From: an uncultured Methylococcaceae bacterium
GTDB lineage: Bacteria > Pseudomonadota > Gammaproteobacteria > Methylococcales > Methylomonadaceae
Direction: 5' to 3'
DNA: 35,502 nucleotides
NCBI GenBank assembly: GCA_903945375.1
Contig: CAJAVP010000013.1
Coordinates: forward strand, 1-35,502
A model generated the notes under the pieces. That model did no database searches. It saw only the letters and a program-made list of their open reading frames with translations, and was not told the origin of the DNA. The number at the start of each line of letters is the position of its first letter. The stretch's first letter is position 1. Both the position numbers and the translations under genes were made by a program. Below, piece by piece: positions 11,362-27,014 of the stretch.

Positions 11362-11417
11362 GGATGATTTAGTCGCTGGGCATCCATGCCCGATTAGGTC
11401 ATCCTATTAAATTTTTT
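11362..11417. terminator. Nested stem-loop between maeB and the convergent btuM
   Basis: GGATGA (11362-11367) pairs with TCATCC (11399-11404) around an inner GGGCA / TGCCC hairpin (11378-11391). TATTAAATTTTTT follows on the plus strand, giving a plausible intrinsic terminator for maeB. The tail overlaps the stop of the convergent btuM gene. Confidence 0.5.
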
Positions 11418-11991
11418 GGTGTTTTATCATTAACGCCAAAATTGTTTTGCCTAGCGTATTCAAGCCTAAACCTAAAAGTACATAAAATACCGCTGAACCC
11501 ACATAGAGTGGAAAATATTGTTTGACGGTGACGGCGTAATCTAACCAAGCCAGACTTTCATAACGTCCTGAAAATAAGAAGAAGCTACCGTTGGATACCA
11601 CAAATGCCAGCGTGGCTGCTAAGCTGCTTAAAACAAGAATAAGTCCTAGGTTACGCACGTTGCGTGCAGTTAAGTTCGCACAATAACAGCCAGTTAGCCA
11701 CATCACGCCATAAGTCAGCGTCAGAAAAACATACGCAGGTGAAATACACCAAGCACTCGTACCATTAGCAATGGCAAGATAGTCAATCACGCCCGCCAAG
11801 ATAAGCAAAAATCCGCCCATCATGGCTTTGGCGTAGAGATTGCCACGATAAAAGCCTGCAAAGAAAAATACCGCTAATGACGCATCTGGTAAATGTAAAA
11901 CATCCCCAAAATGATGGAAGCGCGTCATAACCATCAGCACTATCAAACCAATAGGCAAATAATCAAAAGATAAGGTTTGTTTATTAATCAT
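11407..11991 (-). CDS. btuM: BtuM-like solitary ECF-type cobalamin transporter
   Basis: The 194-residue protein is highly hydrophobic, with about six membrane segments, and is encoded directly after btuB (22 bp) behind the same cobalamin riboswitch. Its size, topology and context match BtuM, a solitary S component proposed to carry cobalamin over the inner membrane without the ECF energising module. BtuM from Thiobacillus denitrificans binds the cobalt through Cys80; here Cys82 lies in the motif NGTSAWCISPAY, almost the same position. The alignment was made by eye from memory of the family, so the symbol needs confirmation. The ATG at 11991 follows GGGAG at good spacing; an upstream in-frame ATG at 12069 lies inside btuB and is unlikely. 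Confidence 0.72.
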   Translation of the reverse strand: MINKQTLSFDYLPIGLIVLMVMTRFHHFGDVLHLPDASLAVFFFAGFYRGNLYAKAMMGGFLLILAGVIDYLAIANGTSAWCISPAYVFLTLTYGVMWLTGCYCANLTARNVRNLGLILVLSSLAATLAFVVSNGSFFLFSGRYESLAWLDYAVTVKQYFPLYVGSAVFYVLLGLGLNTLGKTILALMIKHQKI

Positions 11992-12013
11992 GTAAAGCTC
12001 CCGAAATTCAGGT

Positions 12014-13885
12014 TCAGTTATTGTAATGGATAGACACAAAGAAATTCCTATCCGGCGTATTATAAGCATTGACTGTTTGATAATGCTCGTTTAGTAAATT
12101 ATTTAGTTTGGCGCTGAGCATCCAGCTTTTATTAATATGCCAACCCGTGCGTAAATCAACGGTGACAAACCCGTGAAGATGAACCGGTGCGGTCGGATAA
12201 ACGCTAAAATCCTGGTCAGGTCGATCACCTTGCGCGAGTACATTTACGCCTAAATCAAAAGCGGCAAGGCTTCGAGACATATCAAATGACAAGGATTTGT
12301 CGGTACGCCGTTGCAAACGTTGACCGGTTTGTAAATCAATGGGTCTTAATAGATTTAAATTAAGTTTGTGATGCCAGCCCAGCCAATCGGTCGCAAACTG
12401 CATTTCTAGTCCTTCAATACGGGCTTTATTGATATTGACGGGAGGCCATCCGGAAATCAATTGTTCAATATCCGTATGATAGGCGCGTAGTTCCCAATGC
12501 CATTGACCATGATCACCGGCAAGCCCTACTTCATACGATTGAGATTCTTCCGGTTTTAGTTTTGGATTGCCTCCGCCATAACCCGTATCAGGCCAATACA
12601 GCTGGTTGAAAGTAGGTGCTTTAAACGCATTACCAAAACTGGCAAAGGGACTAATTCCAAAAACACTGTTGTAACGCCAGCCAAGACTACCTGTAACATA
12701 ATGACCAAATGCCTGGTTTTTATCCCAACGGACTGAGGCATTGACAACATGCGAGTCCAGAAAACGGCTTTGCAATTCGGTAAAAACACCGACATCATAA
12801 CGCGAAGGTTTACTATAACCGTCAAAGCCTGGATTAAACGGATCAAGATCGCTACTCTCTACTTCGTCGACACGATAATCCGAGCCAATAGTGAGTTGAT
12901 GAGCATCTGACAGATGGAGTTGGTTTAACCAGCTCGCATTCCAGCGTGTTGTATTATAAGCACTGTCAAAAATGCCGTTTGAGAAAAAAGTTTTTAACTC
13001 ATCCCGACTTTGCCCTAAACGAAGGGAACTATGCCATTGTTCCAGTACGTCAGTGCTTGCGACAAGGCCTACCACATGATTGTTAAACGCCGAGTTATCG
13101 CCGCCATAGCTGGTATCAAATTCATTTACCCCCTCGGTATGCATAAAAAATGCCTCCACTTCGGTACTATGACCAAAGCGATGTCCAGCACGGGCATTAA
13201 TTCCAGTATTTTGATAAGCATCTCGATCAGGATCACTATTTTGTTTGGTATTAAAGCCCTGCGAATCCAGATGAGACACTCCTAGGTTATACCAGCTATT
13301 ATGGAGACGACCGCTGACTGTTCCGGCGGTGTGTGCGGTATCGTAAGAGCCACCACCGGCATCGAGCGTAAATTGCGGTTTATCGGATTGACTGCCTTTA
13401 CGAGTAAAAATCTGGATAACACCACCAATCGCTTCTGAGCCGTATAAACTAGATTGTGGCCCTCTGATAATTTCCACGCGCTCGATTTGATCAATAGGAA
13501 TCAACTCAAAGGGAGTGATGCCTAAAGAGGCTGAGCCGACTTTAATGCCATCAATTAAAACGAGAACATGACCTGTTTCCGTGCCGCGCATAAATAGCCC
13601 AGTAGGCTGACCATAGCTACCACTTTGGACGATATCGATGCCCAACGTGCCTTTGAATAAATCTGGCAAGGTTTTGACTTGCGAATTTTCAATATCTTGA
13701 CGGGTATAAACGGTGGTTGCGGCAGTCAATTGGTTTTTAGGCGTTTCGGTTCGAGTGGCTGTGACCACAACACCGGGTATAGTAGTAATGTGATTGCCTG
13801 AAGTGTTTTGAGTGTTAAGTTCTTGTGCGTACAAATGTGAATGCACACCAACTAACAGTAATGAGCTTATAACGATTTTCTGCAT
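12014..13885 (-). CDS. btuB: TonB-dependent cobalamin receptor BtuB
   Basis: This 623-residue outer-membrane receptor has a signal peptide (1-20, ending HLYA), a TonB-box-like segment VVVTATRTETP, and the plug domain with GIDIVQSGSYGQPTGLFMRG, HVLVLIDGIKV and the IERVEIIRGPQSSLYGSEAIGGVIQIFT signature. The barrel ends with LNNLLNEHYQTVNAYNTPDRNFFVSIHYNN, aromatic-rich as expected. The start at 13885 has a GAGGA site; the frame runs upstream into the riboswitch leader, which is not coding. Vitamin B12 is the predicted ligand because a cobalamin riboswitch precedes it. Energy would come from a TonB-ExbBD complex such as the one at 20967-22819. Confidence 0.93.
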   Translation of the reverse strand: MQKIVISSLLLVGVHSHLYAQELNTQNTSGNHITTIPGVVVTATRTETPKNQLTAATTVYTRQDIENSQVKTLPDLFKGTLGIDIVQSGSYGQPTGLFMRGTETGHVLVLIDGIKVGSASLGITPFELIPIDQIERVEIIRGPQSSLYGSEAIGGVIQIFTRKGSQSDKPQFTLDAGGGSYDTAHTAGTVSGRLHNSWYNLGVSHLDSQGFNTKQNSDPDRDAYQNTGINARAGHRFGHSTEVEAFFMHTEGVNEFDTSYGGDNSAFNNHVVGLVASTDVLEQWHSSLRLGQSRDELKTFFSNGIFDSAYNTTRWNASWLNQLHLSDAHQLTIGSDYRVDEVESSDLDPFNPGFDGYSKPSRYDVGVFTELQSRFLDSHVVNASVRWDKNQAFGHYVTGSLGWRYNSVFGISPFASFGNAFKAPTFNQLYWPDTGYGGGNPKLKPEESQSYEVGLAGDHGQWHWELRAYHTDIEQLISGWPPVNINKARIEGLEMQFATDWLGWHHKLNLNLLRPIDLQTGQRLQRRTDKSLSFDMSRSLAAFDLGVNVLAQGDRPDQDFSVYPTAPVHLHGFVTVDLRTGWHINKSWMLSAKLNNLLNEHYQTVNAYNTPDRNFFVSIHYNN

Positions 13886-13925
13886 AATGTCCTCTGTGCG
13901 CCGCCCGCGCATAGATAATAGAAGT

Positions 13926-14008
13926 TGCAGCGGCAGACAAAACAAAAGCAGTCTCGGAGGCGAGCCAGAAACAGGTGCATTCATTTCGCAAAGCAGCCCG
14001 CCGCTGCA
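13926..14008 (-). promoter_or_regulatory. Possible riboswitch expression platform
   Basis: TGCAGCGGC (13926-13934) and GCCGCTGCA (14000-14008) are perfect 9-bp arms between the riboswitch aptamer and the btuB ribosome-binding site. A further short hairpin, TGCGC/GCGCA on the minus strand, sits right before the GAGGA site. These could switch translation on and off, but which pairing is ligand-dependent cannot be told by eye. Confidence 0.4.
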
Positions 14009-14014
14009 TCGAAT

Positions 14015-14205
14015 ACGCTTTGAGGCCGGTCTCCGGACTTGTAAGTGGCATTTGCCTAAACTATCACCTTCCCATGCCATGCACAGTGGTCTTTCGATAG
14101 TTTTTATACTTATTTACCGTTGCGGGGGCAGCGTCGGATTTGGATAAACCACACCGAACTTCCCGTTTAACCATTGGGTAAAACCCGCTGGAACCTTAAA
14201 GCAGG
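14015..14205 (-). ncRNA. Cobalamin riboswitch
   Basis: Read on the minus strand the leader has the conserved blocks in order: GCCCCCGCAACGGTAA (near 14118-14133), GACCACTGTGCATGGCATGG followed by GAAGG (near 14067-14092), and the 3' B12 box AGTCCGGAGACCGGCC (near 14023-14038). This is the classic AdoCbl/cobalamin aptamer. It lies about 140 bases before the btuB start and should repress btuB-btuM when cobalamin is plentiful. The 5' limit is approximate. Confidence 0.93.
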
Positions 14206-20966: not shown

Positions 20967-21377
20967 TTATTGCTCTTTGGTAATAAAAGCCAATTTGTTA
21001 ATCCCTGCTTTATGTGCTGCTGCCATCGTATCGGCTACTTTGCCATAAGGTACATTTTTATCCGCGTGAAATTGTACGATTATTTCCGTATCAGCCTGCA
21101 ATAAATCCTGCAAAGGCGAGGCTAGGTTTGCTAAGGTTTGCGGGGTGTCATTTAGAAAAATATTGCCTTGTGCATCAATGCTCAAGGTTGCAAAGTGCTT
21201 GTCTGGTGGAACATCTGTTTTTGTTGTTAGGGGTAACTCAACTTTTACCGCTTGCGCCAGCAAGGGTGCGGTCACAATAAAAACGACCAATAAGACCAAC
21301 ATCACGTCAACTAAAGGCGTGACATTGATTTCACTCATTGACCGTTGTGGCGTTGAGCCATTCATTTTAAGGCTCAT
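20967..21377 (-). CDS. exbD: ExbD: proton-channel subunit of the TonB energising complex
   Basis: The 136-residue protein has a single N-terminal membrane helix with the conserved proton-carrying Asp24 in NVTPLVDVMLVLLVVF, followed by a periplasmic domain ending in HADKNVPYGKVADTMAAAHKAGI, typical of the ExbD/TolR family. The adjacent tonB and exbB favour ExbD over TolR. Its ATG overlaps the exbB stop by four bases. It closes the five-gene operon that starts with the putative copper receptor. Confidence 0.94.
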   Translation of the reverse strand: MSLKMNGSTPQRSMSEINVTPLVDVMLVLLVVFIVTAPLLAQAVKVELPLTTKTDVPPDKHFATLSIDAQGNIFLNDTPQTLANLASPLQDLLQADTEIIVQFHADKNVPYGKVADTMAAAHKAGINKLAFITKEQ

Positions 21378-22045
21378 AATGCGTCCTCATCTTGGGTTTT
21401 AAAATCACTCATGACCGCTAATAATAAAAAGCTGGAGACAAAAGACTCAAAATCCACTTGGCATAATTTAATACGCCGTAAAAAGAAGTTGTAAGCCAAA
21501 ACCGCTGGGATCGCCGCAGCAATACCTATCGCTGTAGCGATTAATGCTTCACCAATAGGCCCTGCAACAACATCAATACTGGCTGATTTAGCGTGGCTGA
21601 TACTTTGTAAGGCGTGCATAATGCCCCAGACCGTACCAAATAAACCAACAAAGGGCGACGTACTGCCGATGCTGGCTAATAATGACAGCCCTTGCTCTAG
21701 TGTTTGATGTTCTTTGTTGATTTGCTGAACCATTGATCGTACTAAGATGGACTCAAGATAGCTACTTTCGTGTAGTCGTGAGGGCGCATTTTGGCGAATA
21801 GTGCGTAAAGTCTGATAACCAGCCTCGGCTATTCGGCTTAATGCACTGTGCGATGCTTCGATCTTCAGTGCAGTATATAAGGTATTGGTTGATAAAAACT
21901 GCTGAAAATAACGTCGATTATGATAATTAATACTCCACAGCAGCCATGATTTATACAAAATCAGTGCCCAAGTAATAGCAGAAAAACCAATCAACACCCA
22001 TAACGTTAGATGCACAATATGATTAGCTGAAGAAAGTTGTAGCAT
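21374..22045 (-). CDS. exbB: ExbB: MotA/TolQ/ExbB proton-channel protein
   Basis: The 223-residue inner-membrane protein has three helices (about 13-33, 123-150 and 163-190) and the family core GLSLLASIGSTSPFVGLFGTVWGIMHAL, then GPIGEALIATAIGIAAAIPAVLAYN. With ExbD it turns the proton gradient into movement of TonB. It starts 24 bases after the tonB stop with a good AAGGA site. Confidence 0.95.
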   Translation of the reverse strand: MLQLSSANHIVHLTLWVLIGFSAITWALILYKSWLLWSINYHNRRYFQQFLSTNTLYTALKIEASHSALSRIAEAGYQTLRTIRQNAPSRLHESSYLESILVRSMVQQINKEHQTLEQGLSLLASIGSTSPFVGLFGTVWGIMHALQSISHAKSASIDVVAGPIGEALIATAIGIAAAIPAVLAYNFFLRRIKLCQVDFESFVSSFLLLAVMSDFKTQDEDAL

Positions 22046-22069
22046 AATTAATCCTTAATACGGTTGTTT

Positions 22070-22819
22070 TTAATCCAGTTTAAAAGTTAATGTTTGGCGT
22101 GTCCGTTGCTCGACCGCCACACCATTCACCAGTTTTTGTTTAAACTTCCATTGCTTAATCGCAGAGAGTGCCGCCTCGTTAAAAATGTCACTGGGTTCTG
22201 CATTGACAATCGTCAGATTGGCGACATCACCATTCGGTTTAATGATAAATTCAACCGTAACCCGGCCTTCAATACCGCGTGTTAAGGCACGTTCTGGATA
22301 CTCAGGCGGAGTACGCTTTAATACCACCACGCCTATCGTTAATCCGTTACTATCCCTATCTGCATTTTCGTTGTGAGGCGGTTCAATGGGCTTTGGCTTA
22401 CTTACGTTTATTGTCGGTGCTGGAAGTGGTGCAGCGATAAACTCCGGTTTAGTAACAACAGGCGTATTGTTTTCAGGTACGGGTTGGCGAATTTTTGGCA
22501 CCGGCTTTAGGGCTGGCTTTGGCATCTTTACAATCGGCTTAGGTGTATCTTTTACTGGCTTTTTTTCAACGACTTCAGGTTTTGTTGGTACTGGCTTTTC
22601 TTGAACAGGAGGTTCTACGTGTTGAACTTCTGCCGGTCTTAGTGCAACCTCAATCCATTGTGAATTCACAATGGGCGCATCATAGACATCAATGGTTTGC
22701 CAAATAGTCCATACCCAGATATGAAAGCAAAAGGAAAATCCTCCCATCAACCAGAGCATTTGAATGGGACGTGATGCGGCTAATGTGCCGATGAAGCGGT
22801 TTACGTTTTTAGCCTGCAC
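22070..22819 (-). CDS. tonB: TonB energy transducer
   Basis: The 249-residue protein has an N-terminal membrane anchor (about 20-42, containing the SFCFHIWVW stretch with its His), a Pro/Lys/Val-rich periplasmic spacer (about 66-150), and the C-terminal TonB domain with PPEYPERALTRGIEGRVTVEF, NEAALSAIKQWKFKQ and a final TLTFKLD. It transmits energy from ExbB-ExbD to outer-membrane receptors. The likely start is a GTG at 22819 with a poor ribosome-binding site. The gene lies 50 bp after the secreted-protein gene, so it is probably a dedicated TonB for the receptor at 23661-25886, although it may also serve BtuB. Confidence 0.94.
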   Translation of the reverse strand: MQAKNVNRFIGTLAASRPIQMLWLMGGFSFCFHIWVWTIWQTIDVYDAPIVNSQWIEVALRPAEVQHVEPPVQEKPVPTKPEVVEKKPVKDTPKPIVKMPKPALKPVPKIRQPVPENNTPVVTKPEFIAAPLPAPTINVSKPKPIEPPHNENADRDSNGLTIGVVVLKRTPPEYPERALTRGIEGRVTVEFIIKPNGDVANLTIVNAEPSDIFNEAALSAIKQWKFKQKLVNGVAVEQRTRQTLTFKLD

Positions 22820-22869
22820 CGATCAAATTTTTCCGTGAGAAATCAGCATGAAGATATTCTGAGGTGCTA

Positions 22870-23628
22870 TCACTGACAACCTGCTGTATCTAGCCAGGTG
22901 GATAAATGTCCCCAATCTTGGATGCTTCCATCTACCCCTTGATAATAAACATGGCTATCAGCGGATGAAATTCCCAAAGACACCTGCGATTCGGGATAGT
23001 AGCGGTAAGACGCAAGAGGGCGTGGCTGTGAAATTACGCCGATAGAGGAAAATTCTGAGTACGTGTTTTCTGCCCAATCAAAAAAACACGTTGAACGAGC
23101 GACCTTGGATTTGCCTTTCGGTGTAATTTTTATCGATAACTTCCCATGTCCGCCTTCCATCGGGATGACCGGGTTATGCCAAGATAAATCATACATGCAT
23201 GTTTGCCCCATCAGAGCACCCGGCGTGCAATCCATATAAGCCAATTTATTCAGATTGGTCGCACCTAAGCTAGGATCTAGGGCATTAAAATTTATCGTGA
23301 CATAAGCATTGTTATTGATAGGCGGATCGGTGCGTATCGCTTTAGTATTCATTGCGTAGACACTCGCAGTGATGCCGCCATTACGGTCTTTTGTCCAAGT
23401 TAATTGTTTACTAAGCCAGACAATATCGCCCATTAACACATCGTCTAATATGCCTTGCAGGTTACTGATCTTCTTGGTTTTTACATCATACTTAAAGCTT
23501 CCAGTAAACGTGGTGTCATCTAAAAAAACGACCGAGACGTTGTAACTAACAGCCGCCGCTTGCGTTATCTGAATCGGTGTAACGATGCCGACGAATACCA
23601 GAGGTACTATCATTGTGGTAATTTTCAT
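22870..23628 (-). CDS. Secreted two-domain protein with Met/Cys/His cluster, unknown function
   Basis: The 252-residue product has a signal peptide (about 1-25, ending QAAA), then a beta-rich domain (about 27-175: VSYNVSVVFLDDTTFTGSF, NAYVTINFNALDPS). That domain contains a striking run of potential soft-metal ligands: Met132, Cys134, Met140, Cys144, Met145, His151, Met157, His161. A second small domain (181-252) starts CFFDWAENTYSEF, continues YRYYPESQVSLGISSADSHVYYQG and ends WLDTAGC, with Cys181 and Cys251 likely forming a disulfide. I recall this C-terminal module from secreted proteins of other proteobacteria but know no function for it. The gene lies 32 bp after the copper-receptor gene and before tonB, and has a strong AAGGA site. 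A periplasmic or extracellular copper-binding role is an inference. Confidence 0.85.
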   Translation of the reverse strand: MKITTMIVPLVFVGIVTPIQITQAAAVSYNVSVVFLDDTTFTGSFKYDVKTKKISNLQGILDDVLMGDIVWLSKQLTWTKDRNGGITASVYAMNTKAIRTDPPINNNAYVTINFNALDPSLGATNLNKLAYMDCTPGALMGQTCMYDLSWHNPVIPMEGGHGKLSIKITPKGKSKVARSTCFFDWAENTYSEFSSIGVISQPRPLASYRYYPESQVSLGISSADSHVYYQGVDGSIQDWGHLSTWLDTAGCQ

Positions 23629-23660
23629 TATGATTCCTTGTGTGTTGAGGGGCGATTAGG

Positions 23661-25886
23661 TTAATAAGTAACAGTTAAGCCAACATAAACGGATCGCCCT
23701 ATACCGGGTAAGTTTTGATTATTTAGTCGTGAGGAAACCAATGTCATGGCATTTTGATCGCCGATATAAGCACCGGATAACGGGTAATAATAGTTTTTAT
23801 CTAAGAGGTTATCGACACCGACATCTAAGCTGACGTGTTGCCATTGATAGCCCGTTTTAACATTCAACAGGATATACGCGGGTGTTCGCAATTCGTTGCG
23901 TAGTGCTTGAACATCGTCTTTCGCATCGACAAATTGCATTTCCAAGGCATTTTTCCAGCCCGTTAATTGGTGATCCAGACTCAGTTTTAGATTGAAAGGC
24001 ATCATGTGGTATAGATTTGAGCCATCAGTCCGTTGACCATTGACGTAACTCATAATGGAATGCGTGGAAAATTTCCCCCATCGTTGATCACTCATTAAGT
24101 CTGCGTTAGCGGTGACATCGACCCCCCAAAGCCTTGCATCGTGATTGGCAAATTGTAAGTAGTAAAAACCATTGTTCGGTTGCTTGCAGCTAGCGCAACG
24201 ATCGACATCAATAAAATGTTCTACATAGCTAAAATAAGGCGTCACTTTAATGCCCCACGCATCAGCTTTAGGGTCATAAAAATCTGCTGTAAAACTGAGG
24301 TTATGAGCGATTTCCGGTTTTAATCCCATATTGCCTACATAACCATTGCCGTCTCCAAACCAGCCGACCATTGTCATCATCATAGGACTTCTATCCCAAG
24401 GGTAAAGCTCATGCAATGAGGGCGCACGATTTTTGCGGGCATAACCAAAGTCATATTGACTGCCAGCCTGTGGGGTAAACTGCATCAATGCCGTCACATC
24501 AAAGGTATCAAAATCACGTTGATGATCTAAGGCATTAAACGCATTGGCTTGGATTAAACTGGGCGGTTGGCTATAAAGCTCAGGAAAACGATAATACAAT
24601 CTGGGCACAAAATTATTATAGCCTTGCACATTGCCCGTATCTGTCATTGTGTGGTCGTATCGCAGACCTAACATACTTTTCCACTTGGCCGACCAATTAA
24701 AATCCATTTCTGCAAACGTTCCCAGCCGGTCACGAGTCGCTCTATTGAGATTAAGAAAGGTATTGGGCCCCATCATGCTTAATCGCGTAGATGTTGGCGG
24801 CCAATAATCATTGATAAAGCTACTATGAAATTCGTTGCCAAAACGAAAGGTATGCCGCTTGCCAAAAGGTAAATCAGCTTGCAGCTTATAACCAAAGTTT
24901 CTACCTCGGGTTTCCATTGGCATTTCGACCCTAGCCCGCCTGTCTGCGCCATAGTTCATGGTGTGACTGGTGTTTTCGAGATACAGCTTACCGTCTAAAC
25001 TTCCCCAATCATAACGACCTTTATAATGGACATTGCCAAAAATACTGTCATTGTTGGTCAAATCCATACGCGCTGTTGGGAAGCCCTGAAAAGGAATGTG
25101 CTGTTGTCCGCCTTTGATTTCTAATAAGTGCGTATCGAATTTAAAGGCCAGTGATGCCGCGTGATTTTGATTTTCGTAGGCAGTTGATTGAATAAGGTTG
25201 TTGTTGCCGTCACGATAATTACGGCTTTGTGTATCGGAACCCGTGTAATCCAATCTAGCCTTGTCGCTAGCAATTCCGGCGGCAATACTGCCTCCAAACG
25301 CATCACCATTACTGCGATAAAAAGAGGATGCCTTGCCGGTAAGCAAATAATTATCTCCAGGTTTTGCAAAAATAGGCTCAGGCGATTGCACTGAAATCGT
25401 TCCGCCGATACTATCACCGCCCATACTGACGGGTGTAACCCCTTGTAAAATAATAATGTTACCAATATTAGAACGGTCGACATACGAAAGTGCGGGATTC
25501 ATGTGATTAGGGCAAATGGAATTAACCGTCATACCATTAACATCCACCTTAACCCGCGTATCATTTAGGCCGTGCAAAATGGGCAGCGACGACACACCAC
25601 CACCCGCCTGAAGACTAACCCCTGCAGTATCTTCCAATAATTTTGCGGTATCGGACACTTGTGCCTGCTTTGCTGTAATCTCTTTGGATACTATTTTTTC
25701 TTTGACTGAAATATCCGGTGTAAGCGGTTTCGCGGTGACGGTGTAATCTTCTAAAATCAGCGGCGCATCATTGGCTGGCTCGGTTGCATAAACCACTCGA
25801 CAAACCCCCAGCCCAAAGACTATTAGATAACGAAGCAGGATTCTGGTTGATTTTTTAATCAGGCGACTTAGTAACTGTTTTTGCAT
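23661..25886 (-). CDS. TonB-dependent receptor of the OprC/NosA copper type
   Basis: From the ATG at 25886 the protein has 741 residues: a signal peptide (ending near VVYA, residue 34), a TonB-box region (EDYTVTAKPLTP), a plug with LPILHGLNDTRVKVDVNGM and GGDSIGGTISVQSPEP, and a 22-strand barrel ending in GLTVTY. The copper signature of OprC is present in both halves: CxxxM as C125-PNH-M129 in SICPNHMNPALSYVD, and HxM as H308-T-M310 in NTSHTMNYGADRR. The spacing between the pairs (183) is close to that of OprC (C143/M147 and H323/M325). A GTG at 25970 would add 28 residues but spoil the signal peptide. It heads an operon with a secreted protein, tonB, exbB and exbD. Copper uptake is the prediction. 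Confidence 0.88.
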   Translation of the reverse strand: MQKQLLSRLIKKSTRILLRYLIVFGLGVCRVVYATEPANDAPLILEDYTVTAKPLTPDISVKEKIVSKEITAKQAQVSDTAKLLEDTAGVSLQAGGGVSSLPILHGLNDTRVKVDVNGMTVNSICPNHMNPALSYVDRSNIGNIIILQGVTPVSMGGDSIGGTISVQSPEPIFAKPGDNYLLTGKASSFYRSNGDAFGGSIAAGIASDKARLDYTGSDTQSRNYRDGNNNLIQSTAYENQNHAASLAFKFDTHLLEIKGGQQHIPFQGFPTARMDLTNNDSIFGNVHYKGRYDWGSLDGKLYLENTSHTMNYGADRRARVEMPMETRGRNFGYKLQADLPFGKRHTFRFGNEFHSSFINDYWPPTSTRLSMMGPNTFLNLNRATRDRLGTFAEMDFNWSAKWKSMLGLRYDHTMTDTGNVQGYNNFVPRLYYRFPELYSQPPSLIQANAFNALDHQRDFDTFDVTALMQFTPQAGSQYDFGYARKNRAPSLHELYPWDRSPMMMTMVGWFGDGNGYVGNMGLKPEIAHNLSFTADFYDPKADAWGIKVTPYFSYVEHFIDVDRCASCKQPNNGFYYLQFANHDARLWGVDVTANADLMSDQRWGKFSTHSIMSYVNGQRTDGSNLYHMMPFNLKLSLDHQLTGWKNALEMQFVDAKDDVQALRNELRTPAYILLNVKTGYQWQHVSLDVGVDNLLDKNYYYPLSGAYIGDQNAMTLVSSRLNNQNLPGIGRSVYVGLTVTY

Positions 25887-26233
25887 TAACCGCTGCAAGC
25901 AAACGCGCAAGCTAGGAAATCCAATAGAGAGCGCTCCGAAGTATAAAATGAAAAATATGTTATTGTTCACAGTGTGCTCTGAGTATTGATGTAGTAACAG
26001 GGGTCATTGTCTTGGCAATTAAGGCTAGGGAAATTTAAAAATGCTGAACTGATTATTCGTATGGTTTTTCTAGTGTTAAATGTCTCAGCAGGGTAGGGGG
26101 GGAATGGTTAAGTTAAAATGCTTAATGTTGTGTTGAGATTCATGCTAACAGCATTAAACGAAAATGATCCTAGTCTGTCAATAGACCCTCTTGTAAGTCA
26201 TTTAAGGTTAAGCAACAGAATAAAAACTCTAGT

Positions 26234-26251
26234 AGCATTATATATAATGCT
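26234..26251. promoter_or_regulatory. Perfect 18-bp palindrome
   Basis: AGCATTATATATAATGCT reads the same on both strands. It lies about 350 bp upstream of the receptor start and a similar distance from the plus-strand secreted-protein gene. It may be a dimeric regulator site; its AT-rich centre could also arise by chance. Confidence 0.35.
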
Positions 26252-26296
26252 TATTAATCAGGTTGTTAACAAAAAAAATAAAAACAAACCCAAAGG

Positions 26297-26342
26297 AAAT
26301 TGTGTCATTTAACACACTTTACTGAGTCATATGACACAATTT
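26297..26342. promoter_or_regulatory. Inverted repeat with perfect 12-bp arms
   Basis: AAATTGTGTCAT (26297-26308) and ATGACACAATTT (26331-26342) are perfect arms 22 bases apart. The right arm overlaps a compact palindrome GTCATATGAC (26326-26335) and the left arm is followed by TTAACACA, which pairs with its TGTG. There is no T tract, so an operator (perhaps two sites for a dimeric regulator) is more likely than a terminator. Position between the divergent copper operon and the secreted His-rich protein suggests shared control. Confidence 0.45.
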
Positions 26343-26603
26343 ACTAGAAGGCACTAACACATAAGATTCGTCGCCCTATTGTGATTCCATAAAAAATACG
26401 ACTCAACAACGGCAGTGCTTGCCTAAACTCGATTGTGATCTAACAAAAGGGGAGGGTTATATCTCGATTGCTCTGCTATCAGGACGCAATTCTTAGAGAT
26501 TTCATCAACTAATCGCTATAATTGGCAAGCGTAATTAACTCAATAGCGTCCTCAAGCAAAATCGTTTTTGATATCCTATAATTATTATAAAGAGGGAAAA
26601 CCA

Positions 26604-27014
26604 ATGAAAAATATGACATTACTTATCTTCGCCATTGTCTTAGTCAGTACATCGGCAATCGCAGCAGAACACCATAGTGGTCATGGTGGTGGCAATAGCG
26701 GCGGTGGCGGTACTAGCGGGCATTGTATGAAAGCACATTTAAGTAAATTTCAACCTGCTCACTTGGAAACGGTTGCACCAGAGGCGGAGTTTTCTTTTTT
26801 AGCGTCTAATATTCAAAAACCAGAGCAAGTTTCTGTCACGGTAAAAGGCATTCCAGTTGAACTCAGCAGTGAATTTAAAGACCCCAACTTCGTCGTTAAA
26901 GGTAAACTCCCTAGCAGCTTGGTCAATACTACGGCTAGAGTAAACATTAAAGTCAGTGCAAAAATGTCACACTGTGAAGCCGAGAATGGCTGGCTGTTAA
27001 AAATCACCGAATAA
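26604..27014 (+). CDS. Secreted His/Gly-rich small protein, unknown function
   Basis: The 136-residue product starts at an ATG with an AGAGGG site about eight bases upstream; an in-frame ATG at 26568 would spoil the signal peptide. A signal peptide (1-20, ending AIA) is followed by a flexible, metal-binding-looking tail: AEHHSGHGGG, GGGG and GHC, with His23, His24, His27, His40 and Cys41. A compact beta-rich domain follows (about 42-136: EAEFSFLASNIQKPEQVSVTVKGIPVEL, FVVKGKLP) with Cys124 near the end, which could pair with Cys41. I do not recognise the family. It is divergent from the copper-receptor operon and followed by a hairpin. A role in periplasmic metal binding is inferred. Confidence 0.8.
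   Translation: MKNMTLLIFAIVLVSTSAIAAEHHSGHGGGNSGGGGTSGHCMKAHLSKFQPAHLETVAPEAEFSFLASNIQKPEQVSVTVKGIPVELSSEFKDPNFVVKGKLPSSLVNTTARVNIKVSAKMSHCEAENGWLLKITE

Follow-up and report, generated by a model that had tools for sequence, protein, structure and literature searches.

The present study examines a 35,502-nucleotide stretch of DNA (the window) on contig CAJAVP010000013.1 of an uncultured Methylococcaceae bacterium, and within it a row of five minus-strand open reading frames (ORFs) encoding, in order, a TonB-dependent receptor, a predicted exported protein that we call SecP, and the products of tonB, exbB and exbD. A first-pass annotation had listed these five genes with gaps of 32, 50, 24 and -4 bases, in agreement with the ORF list, and had ended the operon at 25886; this position is an internal ATG of the receptor gene, and a longer version starting with GTG at 25970 is also possible. 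Particulate methane monooxygenase gives methanotrophs a high demand for copper, and a methanotroph-type host is supported by a PF02461 (pmoA-type) gene in the same assembly. The features of the locus are as follows.

23661..25970, minus strand: OprC-like TonB-dependent receptor, start GTG 25970 or internal ATG 25886
22870..23628, minus strand: SecP, 252 amino acids (aa), predicted exported two-part protein without a Pfam family
22070..22819, minus strand: TonB, PF03544 (TonB_C) 3.6e-22
21374..22045, minus strand: ExbB-type proton channel (MotA/TolQ/ExbB), PF01618 (MotA_ExbB) 1.1e-34
20967..21377, minus strand: ExbD/TolR, PF02472 1.4e-29
25971..26567, no strand: upstream intergenic region, presumed promoter, with promoter-like matches not above shuffles

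The first gene encodes a TonB-dependent receptor with plug and barrel domains, both above cut-off (PF07715, Plug, 6.5e-12; PF00593, TonB_dep_Rec_b-barrel, 2.5e-29). Homologues of the TonB C-terminal domain, ExbB and ExbD encoded together make up a TonB-ExbB-ExbD energiser. NCBIfam TolQ/TolR models outscored the ExbB/ExbD models on the window pair, all below the equivalog cut-off, and the window TonB is one of five TonB_C matches in its own genome. Promoter and terminator scans gave no signal beyond that of shuffled sequence.

An OprC-type site in the receptor

Searched against the Protein Data Bank (PDB) with phmmer at E 0.001, the single receptor sequence matched OprC entries only (best 2.5e-14), and a profile of 25 receptor relatives reached OprC 6fok at E 7.5e-38, with all six sequences at E<=1e-20 being OprC. 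In the alignment the receptor CPNHM (CanhM in relatives) falls on OprC CPNRM, whose M is residue 147 of chain 6fok, and the receptor HTM falls column for column on OprC HIM; the spacing from C to H, counted by hand on the profile alignment, is 183 residues in the receptor and 180 in OprC. Conservation was assessed in 65 non-redundant receptors from the fetched loci, after removal of receptors shorter than 640 residues and of duplicates sharing the same final 300 residues; 63 scored above 550 bits and the two low scorers were counted apart. With residues numbered from the ATG at 25886, C125, N127, M129, H308, M310, M322, M324, M506 and M629 are invariant in 63/63, while 57 retain M372 and 59 retain M502. 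Both low scorers keep N127, M129, H308 and M310 and lack several of the other methionines, and one lacks the cysteine. Since CxxxM and HxM are invariant in all 63, the OprC copper ligands belong to the constant features of these receptors as a group, members from Herbaspirillum and Hyphomicrobium included, and the earlier description of an OprC-type receptor with both motifs at near-identical spacing is upheld by alignment and conservation alike. At E 1e-100 the receptor is present in 81 of the 251 genomes of the order searched. Ten proteins neighbouring receptors in Herbaspirillum, Hyphomicrobium and Azonexaceae loci included no copper family, and four of them had no match at all.

The copper-receptor model TIGR01778 gave 113.8 bits on the window receptor against a cut-off of 472.45, and 142.8, 114.1 and 98.4 bits on three relatives. 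Because the OprC ligands are kept but this model stays far below its cut-off, we read the receptor as carrying an OprC-type site within a distinct subfamily, and not as OprC itself. An alternative explanation could be a haem or haemoprotein receptor operon, with the Met and Cys residues being structural, as the haem-receptor models TIGR01785 and TIGR01786 scored 156.6 and 152.3 on the receptor, above TIGR01778. These scores are likewise far below the models' own cut-offs, however, and the PDB profile search at E<=1e-20 returned OprC alone and no haem receptor. In the stretch RAPSLHELY, which we take to be the place where haem receptors keep a histidine, this His is Tyr in many receptor rows, while the nearby Met502 and Met506 are kept in 59/63 and 63/63. 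A clade of these receptors is, moreover, linked to CorA/CorB-like genes (below), which also argues against haem, and we regard a haem operon as very unlikely.

The receptor clade, SecP and their neighbours

A maximum-likelihood tree of the 65 receptors (quick method, with support from the Shimodaira-Hasegawa-like approximate likelihood ratio test, SH-aLRT, only) placed all 14 SecP-linked receptors together with that of locus L039, whose contig ends inside the receptor, in one clade with SH-aLRT 99 (L denotes fetched loci, G genomes). SecP linkage changed twice on the tree, compared with a shuffled mean of 12.9. Eight of the loci on the tree (L088-L095) were fetched because they bear SecP; a receptor-only search also recovers the clade, as 11 loci with full-length or contig-cut SecP, with L088, L094 and L095 found via SecP only. 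The sister pair of the clade, L107 and L109, consists of receptors with differently tailed neighbours of the SecP N-domain type.

Genes within 8 kb of the receptor, mid to mid, were counted for the 15 clade receptors and the 50 others; several flanks end within a few kb, so that absences are weaker than presences. A SecP N-domain gene lies near 14/15 clade receptors, the contig ending at the fifteenth, vs 2/50 others. TonB genes were near 4/15 and 6/50, respectively, and a complete TonB-ExbB-ExbD set near 2/15 (the window and L090) and 3/50. The conserved core is thus receptor plus SecP, with the TonB-ExbBD set as an optional, variable addition. The gene-order search that the first-pass annotation had called for therefore gave a divided answer, in that the receptor-SecP pair is conserved but the five genes are rarely found together, and the idea of a self-contained five-gene arrangement as the recurring unit is not sustained.

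The clade is also set apart by other neighbours, a more informative context that was out of view for the first-pass annotation. A CorB-like di-haem gene was near 10/15 clade receptors vs 1/50 others and a CorA/MopE-like gene near 8/15 vs 1/50, the lone case outside the clade being, for both, a second receptor on clade locus L095. The recurrent order begins with an exported protein of 326-361 aa and a di-haem protein of 725-764 aa, followed once by TonB-ExbB-ExbD, and ends with receptor and SecP. CorA of the PF18252 type was near 0/15 clade receptors and 1/50 others; this one, in G126, scores above the PF18252 cut-off and follows a more distantly related receptor after 163 bases. Individual loci vary: in G135 (L094:10945-13897) a five-haem cytochrome and an F5/8-domain protein replace the CorA/CorB-like genes upstream of the receptor-SecP pair, in G058 (L088:12823-16275) another ORF interrupts the CorB-like gene that lies upstream of the receptor, and in G186 (L095:16150-18255) the second receptor, a distant one, is found upstream of the CorA/CorB-like genes and keeps C...M and H.M but not the other methionines.

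The di-haem protein of the clade matches PF03150 (CCP_MauG), and MbnH-type models (TIGR04039) match below cut-off, as expected for an enzyme like CorB or SACCP. Its exported partner, here the A2 family, did not match PF18252 in the one clade member scanned (L041:4480-5526, the locus of Candidatus Methylobacter oryzae KRF1, which is in culture) or in five relatives with PEP-CTERM-like tails. Profile comparison with CorA by hhalign (14 vs 12 sequences) gave a probability of 95.3 and E 2.3e-8 over 212 columns, with a score of 63.5, where 30 column shuffles reached 21.3 at most. With six A2 sequences the probability was 69.3 (best of 20 shuffles 1.9), and with the CorA set before cleaning it was 43.5. 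For that set, 18 of 30 loci gave an ORF, the 14 under 320 aa and the window genome's own CorA were used, and three wrong-frame rows were dropped, leaving 12. A fold search with a low-confidence AlphaFold model (predicted local distance difference test, pLDDT, 54.3) placed MopE 2vov and CorA 4bz4 at ranks 1, 3, 4 and 6, the best E being 2e-3 and none below 0.001. Profile and model together show the A2 family to be a remote relative of CorA/MopE. PDB sequence searches did not identify it, with nothing at E 1 for the single sequence and a best profile match of 0.039. W90-x-M92 and H146 are invariant in 6/6 A2 sequences, with W-G-M where CorA has W-T-H; among six A2 relatives outside the clade three have W-x-M and three W-x-H, and the His matching the later one of CorA is kept. 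The copper site of CorA is presumably kynurenine (from Trp)-x-His with a distal His. At loci L154-L159, CorA-like proteins with PEP-CTERM-like tails and W-x-H or W-x-M adjoin CorB-like genes in other genomes. Across the order, CorB-like proteins occur in 127/251 genomes at E 1e-60 and PF18252 in 61/251, 57 of these over cut-off.

SecP lies directly downstream of the receptor with a gap of -26 to 161 bases (15 loci measured). A full-length or nearly full-length SecP was found in 14/251 genomes of the order, the window's own included, and adjoins the receptor in 13 of these, the neighbouring stretch in G122 being masked. Its profile finds some match in 46/251, mostly the C-terminal domain alone. 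Export was judged by eye from the N-terminus. The protein consists of an N-terminal domain with a Met/Cys loop and a C-terminal domain of about 75 aa framed by Cys181 and Cys251. Among 12 homologues M132, D133, C134, M140, C144, M145, Y146 and M157 are invariant, giving the stretch YMDC....LM...CMY......P..PM.G with an insertion in one row, while His152 is kept in nine; the Met/Cys cluster of SecP is conserved. Attempts to identify SecP by other means failed: there was no Pfam match at E 0.1 and a single chance match in NCBIfam, PDB sequence searches gave best E values of 0.24 (single sequence) and 0.6 (profile), both chance, and Foldseek against the PDB found nothing at E<=0.001, with low-probability propellers in the top rows. 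The mean pLDDT of the AlphaFold model is 69.2.

The C-terminal Cys...Cys domain (22870-23097 in the window, SecP residues ~178-252) has no Pfam or NCBIfam match. It ends both SecP and the CorA-like proteins of the clade, relatives of which carry a PEP-CTERM-like tail in its place, and it occurs in many other proteins across genomes of the order, often in multiple copies. One possibility is that methanotrophs have here a sorting or anchoring domain that has so far gone undescribed. SecP-related N-domains with PEP-CTERM-like tails flank the receptors of L007, L018/L107 and L109. All ten proteins whose tails were scanned end in a VP.P...-type tail, the PEP-CTERM likeness having first been judged by eye; against sorting-domain models two passed cut-off (L007, L159), five matched below it, and three (L018:13603-14256, L109, L150) had no match. 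Among the receptor-flanking relatives of the SecP N-domain only L007 passed, one of the two L018 proteins reaching 25.3 vs 25.35, and the L007 protein weakly matches the THxN PEP-CTERM family (38.3 vs 85 bits).

It is possible, on these grounds, that SecP has a structural or docking role at the surface, resembling an S-layer protein or capping the receptor, and is no metal carrier, with the receptor alone handling copper. The promiscuity of its C-terminal domain among methanotroph proteins and the PEP-CTERM-like tails of its N-domain relatives would fit this, and a role as S-layer anchor has in the past been proposed for CorA (PMC11784148, PMC13274458; here and below, papers are cited for the portions accessible to us). 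On the other hand, the Met/Cys-rich YMDC....LM...CMY is among the most conserved stretches of the N-domain, and relatives that end in a different C-terminus retain its D-C/M/C-M core. We consider a purely structural SecP rather unlikely, although it is the strongest of the alternatives.

Contigs C85 (L101) and C100 (L102) of the window's own genome together carry two CorA genes (PF18252) and three CorB-like genes, with a tandem pair among the CorB-like ones. The CorA on C100, which matches 4BZ4 at 5.7e-32 and PF18252 at 4.6e-30, stands directly before a CorB-like gene, and the CorB-like protein adjoining CorA matches PF03150 CCP_MauG. The receptor is absent from all 15 other genomes of the genus among those listed. 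Genes for a DUF155 protein and an outer-membrane efflux protein that flank the operon were each matched in 18/20 genomes of the genus, own included; apart from its own genome they share a contig only in G019, about 400 kb apart, so no clean, empty insertion site could be read.

Elsewhere in the window, a divergent gene at 26568-27014 (plus strand) encodes a small protein that looks exported and has a His/Gly-rich beginning (HHSGHGGG...GHCMKAH), a possible metal binder without a family above cut-off. A second TonB-dependent receptor (PF00593, PF07715) is encoded at 12014-14080 (minus strand), followed at 11407-12069 (minus strand) by a protein of 220 aa that no Pfam model matched at E 1e-4.

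A candidate copper importer

The patterns detected are best explained, with a probability of roughly 0.6, by an OprC-type importer for active uptake of Cu(I), a reading that rests on ligand conservation and linkage; ligands and context likewise suggest copper as the substrate. The receptor would bind Cu(I) at the OprC-type Cys/Met/His site, lined by the further invariant methionines, and the TonB-ExbB-ExbD encoded alongside would supply proton-motive force. SecP, once exported, would probably be held at the cell surface and act as a Cu(I)-binding partner, either concentrating copper near the receptor or passing it on, and the operon may be regulated by copper. Since in sister lineages the receptor-SecP pair is co-encoded with CorA/MopE-like and CorB/SACCP-like proteins, the pair is probably the uptake end of a CorA/CorB copper-scavenging route.

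Several observations weigh against this, in addition to the TIGR01778 and haem-model scores given above. No SecP N-domain gene was seen near 48/50 receptors outside the clade, five of the 15 clade receptors have no CorB-like gene in the available flank, and in the window no CorA or CorB gene is linked to the receptor. The Cys/Met loop of SecP is modelled at pLDDT below 50, and SecP was rejected as a member of the CorA/MopE (PF18252) family itself, with an hhalign probability of 2.8 (the CorA set then including the three wrong-frame rows) and no Pfam match. Lastly, SecP is absent from 19/19 other genomes of the genus searched, so the unit is dispensable, and with the absence of the receptor this makes the operon an accessory unit, gained or repeatedly lost.

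A more specific version of the importer, which we hold only tentatively and at somewhat less than even odds, is that the clade forms the outer-membrane entry gate of the CorA/MopE pathway, in which a CorA-like protein, matured by the CorB-like enzyme, and SecP would pass Cu(I) into a TonB-ExbBD-driven receptor of OprC type. By analogy, and with the same reservation, such a gate could be a protein-based counterpart of haemophore uptake.

Comparison with known copper systems

OprC of Pseudomonas aeruginosa (6FOK and others) has the receptor family, the CxxxM/HxM columns and the near-identical spacing in common with the window receptor. Unlike OprC and the TIGR01778 receptors, the present group has extra invariant methionines, and unlike OprC the window receptor sits in an operon with SecP and TonB-ExbBD. 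OprC-type receptors and MbnPH-like genes occur behind CruR homologues, and oprC itself is preceded by a cruR homologue (PMC9426467), whereas there is no ORF of at least 80 aa in 25971..26567 upstream of the window receptor, and hence no CruR-type leader gene of that size was seen.

CrtA (BfrG) of Bordetella pertussis is likewise a copper TonB-dependent transporter, and some crtA operons include TonB-ExbBD, but it has a PepSY_TM partner and imports chelated Cu(II) (PMC12914433). The window receptor was rejected as CrtA: its Cys and Met residues are invariant, and no PepSY_TM gene was found among the eight window proteins scanned by Pfam. The methanobactin receptor MbnT with MbnP/MbnH resembles the clade loci in placing a receptor beside a MauG-like enzyme and a partner protein, and differs in being methanobactin-linked; the NCBIfam MbnP model matched neither SecP nor the single CorA-like protein scanned. 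These systems raise an alternative in which the receptor imports a copper chelate (methanobactin-like, a foreign chalkophore or a metabolite complex) instead of protein-delivered or free Cu(I), with SecP as an accessory. MbnT and CrtA are both receptors for chelated copper (PMC12914433, PMC3621798), and MbnP/MbnH pairs, which have been compared with MopE/SACCP and CorA/CorB, also occur near MbnT-like receptors (PMC3621798). CrtA, in contrast, is described as lacking conserved Cys or Met in the accessible part of PMC12914433, where the present receptors keep the Cys and several Met in 63/63, and import of a chelate appears unlikely to us compared with the OprC-type Cu(I) importer.

In Methylococcus capsulatus Bath, the cluster CRC 1 (MCA0421-MCA0447), which responds to copper limitation, holds multihaem cytochromes and TonB-family proteins, including the TonB receptor MCA0440 (PMC4831470). 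A locus in G054 has a similar make-up, with a TonB receptor and genes of the TonB family set among multihaem cytochromes. Its receptor relative, whose motifs are CSNHM and HLM, adjoins genes of the TonB/ExbB/ExbD type and a multihaem cluster (L160, 19.9 kb with 45 haem motifs), and a nearby two-haem protein matches CCP_MauG only below cut-off. Its layout suggests that it may be equivalent to CRC 1, but no SecP was seen there and the G054 receptor is only distantly related to that of the window.

A further comparison is with CorA/CorB of Methylomicrobium album and MopE/SACCP of Methylococcus capsulatus, as the sister loci hold a remote CorA/MopE relative together with a CorB/SACCP-like di-haem enzyme. 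The linked relative differs from CorA in not being called by PF18252, in W-x-M for W-x-H, and in its C-terminal Cys domain, and in the window's genome CorA/CorB-like genes are present but not adjacent to the operon. CorA has been treated as part of a two-gene system (PMC3912023), and the accessible portions of further papers describe CorA/MopE without a linked receptor (PMC6423226, PMC8262016, PMC11784148). In the portions of the openly licensed literature available to us neither SecP nor a receptor gene linked to relatives of CorA/CorB came up, which is no proof of absence, and the openly licensed literature yielded no transcriptome work on TonB genes of Methylobacter under copper limitation. 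The idea of copper uptake by way of CorA/MopE is already in print in what is accessible, with no gene named, and how MopE copper enters the cell is a stated unknown. What is new here is a receptor-SecP clade with CorA/CorB-like neighbours, which suggests how scavenged copper may enter cells. The linkage makes this entry directly testable, with a receptor linked to CorA/CorB relatives and a new secreted partner as a concrete candidate for knock-outs, and it raises the possibility that receptors of the OprC type are loaded by proteins dedicated to this and not by free copper alone.

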